Part shown: positions 13,598 through 55,970 of the stretch, one piece after another | Numbering within the stretch: the first letter of the stretch is position 1 | Layout: each line of letters starts with the position of its first letter | Source of the DNA: Bradyrhizobium erythrophlei | GTDB lineage: Bacteria; Pseudomonadota; Alphaproteobacteria; Rhizobiales; Xanthobacteraceae | Reading direction: 5' to 3' | Assembly (NCBI RefSeq): GCF_900142985.1 | Contig: NZ_LT670849.1 | Span: forward strand, 372,001 to 436,000 | Length of the DNA stretch: 64,000 nt | Notes under the pieces: model-generated | Databases searched by the model: none | Seen by the model: the letters and a program-made list of their open reading frames with translations, nothing else | What the model was told of the DNA's origin: nothing | Translations under genes and position numbers: made by a program

Positions 13598-13747
13598 AGC
13601 TTTCCCTGCGCCTTCAACTCCGACGATTTAATCATGCAAACCGTAAGCTGGGCCACAAATTTTTCAGGATTGTGGCAGCGCCCCGACCCGGCAGTGACCG
13701 GATAACTGTTAGGTGGCGCGCAGATCGCGACCCCGCAAGGCCGGCTG

Positions 13748-13914
13748 GGTGGAGTGGATTTGACATTCGCCACCCGCCTAGCCGCAGGTTCGTCGAGCGA
13801 ATGTCGAATCCCAGCCTCCACCAGAAACTTATATTCGCTAGCGGTCCTTCGATTCTAACATTCGCAAAAGTGCCCGCCGTGAAGGGATGCGAATGTTAAA
13901 ATCGGACCGCTAGC
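13748..13914. repeat. Paired palindromes between eutB and hpnP
   Basis: Two imperfect palindromes in tandem. The first (13748-13822, 75 bp) has arms starting GGTGGAG and ending GACATTCGC. The second (13837-13914, 78 bp) has outer arms GCTAGCGGTCC and inner arms TAACATTCGCA. The loop-side arm sequence GATT(C/T)(G/T)-ACATTCGC is shared between the two units. The 14-bp spacer carries AAACTTAT (13825-13832) followed six bases later by TAG. The right arm overlaps the eutB TAG stop codon (13910-13912). The same architecture occurs at 55802-55970. As RNA each unit would fold into a long hairpin between eutB and hpnP. Confidence 0.85.
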
Positions 13915-15292
13915 CGATCAGGCGGCGGGCGAAGTCCGGCAGCAGTTCGCCGCTACCGGCGAGACGAAAACTGGCATCCACAATACCTGCACGAAACAGC
14001 CAGTCGTCGAACTCAGGTGCGCGCTTCAACCCGAAGACGTCGCGGACGTAAAGTGCGTCATGAAACGACGTCGACTGATAATTCAACATCACGTCGTCGG
14101 CGCCCGGGACCCCCATGATGAAATTGACGCCGGCCGCCGCGAGCAACGTCAGCAGACTGTCCATGTCATCCTGATCGGCTTCGGCGTGATTGGTGTAGCA
14201 AACATCCACGCCCAGCGGCAGACCAAGCAGCTTGCCGCAAAAGTGATCCTCGAGCCCGGCGCGGATGATCTGCTTGCCGTCGTAAAGATATTCGGGACCG
14301 ATAAAGCCGACGACGCTGTTGACGAGCAACGGATCGAACGCGCGCGCGACCGCGTAGGCACGCGCCTCGCAAGTCTGCTGGTCGACGCCGTGATGGGCAT
14401 TGGCCGACAGCGCCGACCCCTGCCCGGTTTCGAAATACATCACGTTGTGACCGACGGTACCGCGCTGAAGCGAACGGCCGGCATCGTGCGCTTCACGTAA
14501 CAGTTTAAGATCGACGCCGAAGCTTCGGTTGGCGGCCTCCGTTCCTGCGATCGACTGAAAGACCAGATCGACGGGCACGCGCTCGGAAATCAATCGAAGC
14601 GTCGTCGTCACGTGGGACAGCACGCAGGATTGCGTCGGAATTTGCAGCCGGCCAATGATCTCGTCGAGCAGATGCAGCAGCCTGGCGATCACGGCGGGAT
14701 CGTCGCTCGCCGGATTGATGCCGATGCACGCATCGCCCGCCCCGAGCAAAATACCATCCAGGATCGATGCGGTGATACCCTTCGCATCATCGAAGGGATG
14801 GTTGGGCTGCAACCGAACGCTCATTCGCCCGTGCAGCCCGATCGTGTCGCGGAAAGCGGTAACGACCTCGCATTTTTTCGCAACCAGGATCAGATCCTGG
14901 TTGCGCATCAGCTTTGAAACCGCCGCCGCCATTTCCGGCGTGATCCCGCGCGCGATGGTCTTGAGAACGTCCGAGCTTGCGTTTCCCGACAGCAGCCAGT
15001 CGCGGAATGCCCCGACCGTCAACGAGGAAATGGCCGCAAAGGCCACGGGATCATGGCCGTCGACGATCAGACGCGTAACCTCGTCAGCTTCATAGGGAAT
15101 GACCGCTTCGGTGAGGAACTGCTTGAGGGGCACATCAGCGAGCACAATCCGCGCCGCCACCATCTCTTCGGCGCTGTCGGCCGCAACCCCGGCCAGGCGA
15201 TCGCCAGAGCGCGGCGGACTTGCCTTGGCCAGGAGTTCGCGGAGGTCGCTGAAGACGTAGGCGGTATTACCGATGGCGTGCCGATAGGCCAT
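13910..15292 (-). CDS. eutB: Ethanolamine ammonia-lyase large subunit
   Basis: Catalytic large subunit of ethanolamine ammonia-lyase (TIM barrel, adenosylcobalamin-dependent). The 460-residue length is normal. Family stretches include RLQPNHPFDD, LLGAGDACIGINPASDDP, QSCVLSHVTTTL, SANAHHGVDQQTCEARAYA and NFIMGVPGADDVMLNYQ. The start ATG at 15292 follows GGAGCAAGC. The ribosome site adjoins a perfect 12-bp palindrome (15301-15312) that could fold over it. EutC is separated from EutB by hpnP, an unusual split of a two-subunit enzyme. A chemoreceptor gene diverges upstream. Confidence 0.95.
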   Translation of the reverse strand: MAYRHAIGNTAYVFSDLRELLAKASPPRSGDRLAGVAADSAEEMVAARIVLADVPLKQFLTEAVIPYEADEVTRLIVDGHDPVAFAAISSLTVGAFRDWLLSGNASSDVLKTIARGITPEMAAAVSKLMRNQDLILVAKKCEVVTAFRDTIGLHGRMSVRLQPNHPFDDAKGITASILDGILLGAGDACIGINPASDDPAVIARLLHLLDEIIGRLQIPTQSCVLSHVTTTLRLISERVPVDLVFQSIAGTEAANRSFGVDLKLLREAHDAGRSLQRGTVGHNVMYFETGQGSALSANAHHGVDQQTCEARAYAVARAFDPLLVNSVVGFIGPEYLYDGKQIIRAGLEDHFCGKLLGLPLGVDVCYTNHAEADQDDMDSLLTLLAAAGVNFIMGVPGADDVMLNYQSTSFHDALYVRDVFGLKRAPEFDDWLFRAGIVDASFRLAGSGELLPDFARRLIG

Positions 15293-55784: not shown

Positions 55785-55801
55785 CGAGGCGTTACTCCTC
55801 T

Positions 55802-55970
55802 TAGTACCGCCGATCTGAAGTCCCTGCACCACAAGCGGCGAGTCCAATCAGGGACTTCAGATCGATGAAGCGGTACTAGATTCAATAAGTTTGCTAGTGC
55901 CCATGACTTTCCGAAGTTCGTGACGGTGGGTGCTGCAATGGAGCTCGAACTTCGGAAGGTGGGCGCTAGC
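55802..55970. repeat. Paired palindromes between binding-protein and livH genes
   Basis: Two palindromes: 55802-55878 (77 bp; outer arms TAGTACCGC/GCGGTACTA, inner GATCTGAAGTCCCTG) and 55893-55970 (78 bp; outer GCTAG.GCCC, inner CCGAAGTTCG). They are separated by 14 bp that on the minus strand reads AAACTTAT, six bases, then TAG. Lengths, spacer length and the AAACTTAT-N6-TAG junction match the element at 13748-13914, in opposite orientation. Both units here share TC(T/C)GAAGT(C/T)C in their inner arms. It lies between the gene for an abundant binding protein and its permease. Confidence 0.85.

Follow-up and report, generated by a model that had tools for sequence, protein, structure and literature searches.

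A probable non-autonomous, MITE-like element of two hairpins, mobile between the genes of Bradyrhizobium erythrophlei and found mainly in Rhizobiales

Among the repeats already described, the Rhizobium-specific intergenic mosaic elements (RIME), known here by description, are intergenic palindromic repeats of rhizobia which measure about 108 bp and contain two large palindromes. The CcrM-associated repeats of Caulobacter (CIR1-CIR4) are likewise alpha-proteobacterial and intergenic, and in the part of the account available to us they are described as two long stem-loops with a linker, TA termini and GANTC sites (PMC2229807). The same partial account presents ERIC, RUP, Correia/NEMIS and other TA-ended MITEs as small, non-coding, intergenic repeats with TA termini and target duplication, RUP being linked to IS630-Spn1 (PMC2229807). 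In Brucella, as far as the available extract goes, the palindromic repeats Bru-RS1 and Bru-RS2 are favoured by IS711, which duplicates the TA of YTAR, a site that includes CTAG (PMC2266754). Finally, REPs of the GTAG/CGTC kind (PMC3733652) and Br-REP1/2 (PMC5082802) are presented, in the sections of these sources at hand, as intergenic palindromic repeats which also occur in Bradyrhizobium and can form dimers.

Here, we describe a two-hairpin element found twice in a stretch of 64,000 nucleotides of the B. erythrophlei genome (NZ_LT670849.1, positions 372,001 to 436,000), here called the window. The original prediction of two palindrome pairs, at 13.7 and 55.8 kb, proved right at both places. 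A covariance model of the single hairpin matched at 13745-13824 (-), 13838-13913 (+), 55801-55879 (-) and 55894-55969 (+) with E = 7.5e-12 to 1.3e-16, and each of the four also gave a weaker match on the opposite strand. The features are as follows.

13747..13912, no strand assigned: element 1 (type A), 166 bp when the outer dinucleotides are counted in; these are GG (decayed) and TA
13747..13823, minus strand: alpha hairpin of element 1, with the bulge on the inner side, read as a 5'-bulge on the minus strand (inverted repeat, parse and model match)
13824..13838, plus strand: spacer of element 1, holding AAACTTAT at 13825-13832
13839..13912, plus strand: beta hairpin of element 1, whose right foot CTA (13910-13912) is the eutB stop TAG on the minus strand
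13910..15292, minus strand: eutB, ethanolamine ammonia-lyase large subunit (ORF and NF011649 match, 710.6 bits), ending inside element 1
55802..55968, no strand assigned: element 2 (type B), 167 bp, all four feet TA
55802..55878, minus strand: alpha hairpin of element 2 (inverted repeat, parse and model match)
55879..55894, minus strand: spacer of element 2, with AAACTTAT on the minus strand
55895..55968, plus strand: beta hairpin of element 2 (inverted repeat, parse and model match)

The unit of about 165 bp consists of two inverted hairpins of about 75 nt each, which are separated by an AT-rich spacer of 13-16 nt; feet and loops tell them apart as alpha and beta. Above its 2-bp foot, each hairpin has a lower stem of 7 bp, which an inner-side bulge (about 3-5 nt) separates from an upper stem of some 15 bp; the loop measures about 22 nt. 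Read from outside, the usual order is the outer dinucleotide (mostly TA), the lower stem (starting with GTG), the bulge, the upper stem, the loop, the complementary arm, the inner dinucleotide and the spacer, followed by the mirrored hairpin. The visible CTAG is made up of the foot TA with the C before and the G after it, and the outer arms, which begin with TAGTG, are imperfect inverted repeats, that is, terminal inverted repeats of the MITE type. The left foot of element 1 has decayed, leaving the foot dinucleotides GG, CA, TA and TA. The spacer, first given as exactly 14 bp, is indeed near that length between the model ends (13 and 14 bp), but it is not fixed, as 15 and 16 nt lie between the inner dinucleotides. 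The predicted junction AAACTTAT-N6-TAG, read on opposite strands, is exact in both elements. Relative to the hairpin classes it runs from alpha to beta at 13.7 kb and from beta to alpha at 55.8 kb, and this identity across strands is aided by the quasi-palindromic spacer, whose commonest forms in homologous orientation approximate G-CAAA-NN-TA-N-G-N-TT-C. The overlap between the right arm and the end of eutB can be stated more precisely: the stop codon TAG itself sits in the right foot.

The same unit is abundant in the rest of the genome. In 1.656 Mb (22% of the genome), 54 hairpin pairs were found (one of them an overlapping triple read a second time), and one Markov control gave 0; scaling of this number gives about 240-260 copies in the 7.5-Mb genome. 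Hairpins with an arm score of at least 14 and a loop of 14-34 numbered 101 in this part, a minority of them being other hairpins, against 0 in one first-order Markov control, and neighbouring hairpin centres lay 90-99 bp apart in 50 cases against 0. BLAST with A-type and B-type queries gave at least 40 near full-length places each, counted among the best 40 of 201 and the best 40 of 105 candidates. Since four seemingly single strong hairpins (94022, 254574, 331485 and 455083) all have decayed partners, the pair can be taken as the unit; the hairpin at 1069820 belongs to a nest (1069820-1070080). The junction pattern AAACTTAT-N6-TAG occurred 9 times against 3 for a reversed control pattern, and all nine occurrences lie within such elements. 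The copies keep the range of spacer length and the likeness of arms within a pair, the two properties whose loss would have made the resemblance of the two elements a matter of chance. This supports the original view of a paired unit, unlike a simple scattered REP, whose frame is nearly fixed while its arms change and co-vary. Lone outer arms and internal-deletion derivatives, as expected of replication slippage on hairpins, were seen at C1:1276303, 1353779, 1389322, 1589520 and 497377. Strong short-loop palindromes with CCCCGG at C1:125774, 133897 and 237591, the first two of which share arms, are terminator-like and unrelated to the element. No gene was found inside any copy. GANTC, the site of CcrM methylation, is enriched, with 8.7 sites per kb inside the elements, as compared with 2.0 per kb in the examined part of the genome; 127 elements hold 184 sites, against 83 when shuffled, in their stems and spacer, with at least one site in 98 elements and none in 29. 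This set of 127, also used below for pairing and core class, excludes L199 (a false parse) and G000:1070008 (the second reading of the overlapping triple).

Comparison with relatives shows that the element has moved, as seen from empty and filled sites, nested copies and near-identical copies with different flanks. First, in a search of 146 genomes, from which the best-matching loci were read, the eutB site is empty in all 29 relative loci and the 55.8-kb site in all 27; one of the latter (L317) carries a different palindrome in the intergenic stretch that holds element 2 here. Second, fourteen copies of type F share 95-99% identity, each being 163 nt long and bounded as C[TA]..[TA]G, and they stand in 14 different flanks. 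Third, in L232 a B copy has inserted into another copy, at the TA where spacer and alpha hairpin join. The insertion can be measured in the flagellar genes. Between fliQ and fliR, 27 of 29 loci are empty, with a distance between two conserved blocks of 25 nt in 26 of them and 26 nt in one, while the two filled loci measure 188 nt, which equals 25 + 165 - 2, with TC as the duplicated dinucleotide. This one well-aligned site thus shows a target duplication of 2 bp. In most insertions the duplicated dinucleotide is the TA of CTAG, and TA is also the one seen in nested copies. Between fliR and flhB, the end of the copy in L165 is TA then C, which limits the duplication to TA there, and L201 and L202 also carry the element. 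At the same site L205 and L213 are otherwise empty and have a short stretch like the right end of the element, perhaps a remnant of excision or deletion.

The hairpin model matched 11 of 41 relatives including this genome, all in one genus, where 11 of 25 genomes are carriers. In an order-wide search (E <= 1e-6, strict filters, at most the best 16 candidates per genome scored), 48 of 297 sampled genomes and 25 of 122 genera were matched, and hairpin pairs were readable in most of 28 loci from this search. Named carriers include Bradyrhizobium pachyrhizi, B. oropedii, B. uaiense, Allorhizobium taibaishanense, an Afifellaceae MAG and a Sphingomonadales MAG. Among 49 stretches with named sources, 33 hold an element accepted by the parser, and a further 12 went unparsed as they were cut at the stretch end, decayed, duplicates or read by eye only; both Sphingomonadales stretches are among these 12. 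Matches in Dysgonomonas, Methanosarcina, Tissierella and Enterococcus, where no hairpins were seen by eye, were taken as chance. On plasmids, 24 records match the Allorhizobium-type copy, 4 of them across at least 80% of it, and a type-F query gave no plasmid match. Both hairpins were found by the model in plasmid regions of Rhizobium sp. SSA_523, Martelella sp. NC18 and Roseibium algicola. In the first of these (L387, plasmid pHM3), the record lists, a few kb away from the element, a gene for a predicted RND efflux pump (adeF-like, 69% identity). Phages gave no match, and a single junction-pattern match in viral contigs was set aside, as no hairpins were seen by eye.

In our reading, these copies are those of a mobile DNA element that is MITE-like and non-autonomous, is known mainly from Rhizobiales, has a two-hairpin unit of about 165 bp, and inserts mostly at CTAG with duplication of the TA, and we put the probability of this at roughly 0.7. 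The element is short and non-coding, exists in many dispersed copies and has terminal inverted repeats and a target-site duplication, as MITEs do. A transposase acting in trans would recognise the four arm copies, so that the alpha and beta arms would change jointly as its specificity drifts, and the foot and spacer would serve the reaction. The likeliest enzyme would be a DDE transposase with a YTAR/CTAG target and a TA duplication, either of the IS711 kind or IS630/mariner-like, and some copies may later have been kept as hairpins beside genes. Because the element starts with G after TA, an insertion at a TAG stop can leave an in-frame TAG. A foot TAG is the stop of a long frame at 14 of 31 scorable ends, eutB among them, which is not different from one third (p 0.18), and the supply of stop codons was rejected as a function.

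Several observations count against this explanation. In this genome a mobilising gene was found neither by the Y1 and IS630 DDE_3 domains nor as an autonomous copy, the latter having been sought by outer arms and by TA-flanked inverted repeats in 1.656 Mb (22% of the genome). The IS630 DDE_3 domain had 0 matches in this genome and 17 in G010, a search of uncertain sensitivity as the control matched only 3 of 14 genomes, and an IS630 partner in this host was rejected on this result. Non-TA duplications (TC, GA and CA) are unusual for a strict TA enzyme, and one pair, g1132248, joins arms of two classes.

The arms themselves change in two ways, within and between the hairpins. Within the hairpin, both sides have changed in 22 of 24 predicted stem pairs in an alignment of 33 hairpins, and the stems thus show compensatory evolution. 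Watson-Crick pairs fill 5629 of 5842 stem cells in the 127 elements, the remaining 213 comprising 78 G.T, 61 A.C and 74 others. Between the hairpins, the inner arm had been thought to be shared by both units of an element; the two are related but not identical, with a mean core identity of 9.46/14 within elements against 8.36 after shuffling (s.d. 0.14, maximum 8.79 in 2000 shuffles), as measured on 61 distinct alpha/beta core combinations from all genomes with a shuffle that leaves the relatedness among copies in place. With agreement at only about 9.5 of 14 core positions, the proposed strand exchange between the hairpins is unlikely. By a simple motif rule, both hairpins have the same core class in 117 of 127 elements, and most of the other 10 reflect a point change, truly mixed-looking classes being limited to g1132248, L184 and L185. 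In the first of these (C1:1132248-1132408) a GAAGTTC-type alpha hairpin is joined to another alpha hairpin of the ACATTCGC type; the pair may have arisen by recombination between two elements. The trend extends to other genera, with ACATTTG in both hairpins of L359, L368 and L372 and GAAGTTC in both of L373 and L384, and agreement is poor in L360, L272 and L385.

Even the feet change in concert. The sets of 194 elements used for core identity and feet include G000:1070008, and 32 of the 194 could not be typed as alpha/beta. Their 388 hairpins have TA/TA feet in 298 cases, non-TA yet complementary feet in 35, a change outside only in 31, inside only in 15 and a change without complementarity in 9. 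The inner dinucleotide tends to complement the duplicated outer dinucleotide even in non-TA cases, as in GA/TC/TC/GA (G000:743021), TC/GA/GA/TC (fliQ-fliR, L153) and CA/TG/TG/CA (L157). Equal non-TA outer dinucleotides at both ends occur in 6 elements (four loci, three elements being orthologous fliQ-fliR copies) and unequal ones in 5. Such concerted feet reflect either hairpin-templated correction after insertion or foot pairing in the choice of target. The first of these can be extended to the whole arm, so that co-variation within a hairpin would result from template-switch correction of a quasi-palindrome after insertion, without selection for the hairpin. The 35 of 388 complementary non-TA feet, which include duplicated dinucleotides, agree with this. 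However, correction alone should not slow divergence, yet the stems diverge far less than the loops, and the likeness of alpha and beta arms is left unexplained; we consider this account doubtful.

The difference between stems and loops was measured in copies kept at one place, namely at two loci of a single flagellar operon and with stem and loop limits set by hand. In the four orthologous fliR-flhB copies (L165, L201, L202 and L383), stems vary in 5 of 97 columns and loops plus spacer in 26 of 60 (Fisher p 8e-9), and in the three fliQ-fliR copies (L153, L203 and L204) the values are 8 of 105 and 21 of 55 (p 5e-6). For the fliR-flhB and fliQ-fliR sets, respectively, fliR varies at 94 and 81 of 256 third codon positions, 17 and 18 first positions and 2 and 6 second positions. 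Paired changes (GTG/CAC to GCG/CGC, and CTC/GAG to CCC/GGG) exist among the fliQ-fliR copies, together with single-sided ones. These two old copies seem to matter in place, as their stems are several-fold less variable than loops, spacer and third positions. The spacer, similar among mobile copies, varies in 7 of 16 and 2 of 11 columns in the old operon copies, and in our reading the spacer has its function in movement, the stems having a further one in place.

Individual copies may thus have a role as RNA or DNA hairpins. A wider possibility is a structured RNA, as raised in the original prediction, or a stabiliser or terminator acting on mRNA, whose stems are kept by selection on pairing. 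The conserved stems and paired changes of the two copies inside fliQ-fliR-flhB speak for it, but the strand and the gene context do not. In hairpins that could be typed, 53 G.U stand against 72 A.C on the beta-to-alpha strand and 72 against 53 on the opposite one; G.U is thus not in excess on the beta-to-alpha strand, and there is no clear sign that the pairing kept is that of an RNA from one strand. A crude gene model places 53 of the 54 elements in intergenic stretches, 16 in ++, 14 in --, 15 in -+ and 8 in +- orientation, and a role as terminator only was ruled out as all four classes are occupied. Rfam gave 0 matches in the window and otherwise only weak, chance-like matches, none over the gathering score. 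As an RNA function would also leave the duplication and the near-identical copies unexplained, we regard it as unlikely for the family as a whole.

A still less probable account, and a quite improbable one in our view, is that the target is chosen by base pairing at the hairpin foot, the folded strand being moved by an enzyme that reads the target via the foot. The concerted feet would favour it only if the match of inner and outer dinucleotides was present at insertion and did not arise by later arm-to-arm correction. If true, a target read by the foot would be a design of transposition outside the IS200/IS605 group.

The original prediction also considered a processing substrate of a REP-type transposase. 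PF01797 (Y1) had no match at E <= 1 in this genome, in a search whose control matched 10 of 14 genomes; G010, a carrier of near-identical copies, likewise gave none. Y1 matches exist in 7 of 10 other carriers tested, a point in favour, but the hairpins around ten Y1 loci are of other kinds; the long near-perfect palindromes of other sequence at two of them (L196 and L199) are perhaps genuine RAYT-linked repeats distinct from the element. To our knowledge, Y1 enzymes are not expected to make a 2-bp duplication, and the GTAG/CGTC tag at one end of a short hairpin is absent, CTAG standing instead at both feet of long hairpins. Although REPIN/BIME have the same plan of many intergenic copies, each with two inverted palindromic units around a spacer, GTAG REP stems are of 6-13 bp with short loops in the available part of the source (PMC3733652) against about 22 pairs, a bulge and a 22-nt loop here, and a REP/REPIN-type element mobilised by a RAYT (Y1 HUH transposase) is thus very improbable.

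The abundance of the element (about 240-260 copies by scaling; 25 of 122 genera) bears on annotation, repeat-based typing and operon structure in Rhizobiales. In addition, the moving enzyme, the similar cores of both hairpins and the passage of a mobile hairpin into a conserved part of an operon (fliQ-fliR-flhB) become testable questions.

Compared with the known systems, the element works, in our reading, like a TA-duplicating MITE, and identity with REP/RAYT systems is not supported. GTAG/CGTC REPs (PMC3733652) and Br-REP1/2 (PMC5082802) differ in their short stems and other consensus, as far as the available sections go; in 1.656 Mb there is no occurrence of the Br-REP1 consensus and a single one of a 15-nt piece of Br-REP2. 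No description of the element was found in the open-licence literature, most subscription papers lying outside this scope, and 'unnamed' is therefore provisional. As for RIME, 200 kb of the S. meliloti plasmid pSymB, too little to decide the relation, gave no hairpin-model match and no hairpin pair. Bru-RS, compared by description only, are reported in the available extract as targets of IS711 and not as its derivatives (PMC2266754). ERIC, RUP, Correia/NEMIS and the other TA-ended MITEs fold by pairing of their 5' and 3' ends according to the partial account (PMC2229807), whereas here each half folds alone; the IS630 DDE_3 search, negative in this genome, is a further difference. Independent stem-loops with a linker, TA termini and an intergenic position are all found here, as in CIR, the closest design met in the literature covered. 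In the portion of the source at hand, CIR are about 110 bp long, have GANTC at the terminal loop and no known mobility (PMC2229807), whereas the present element measures about 165 bp, carries GANTC in its stems and spacer, and duplicates 2 bp. Compared by description and not by sequence, the element looks like a longer relative (by about 50 bp) of the CIR kind.
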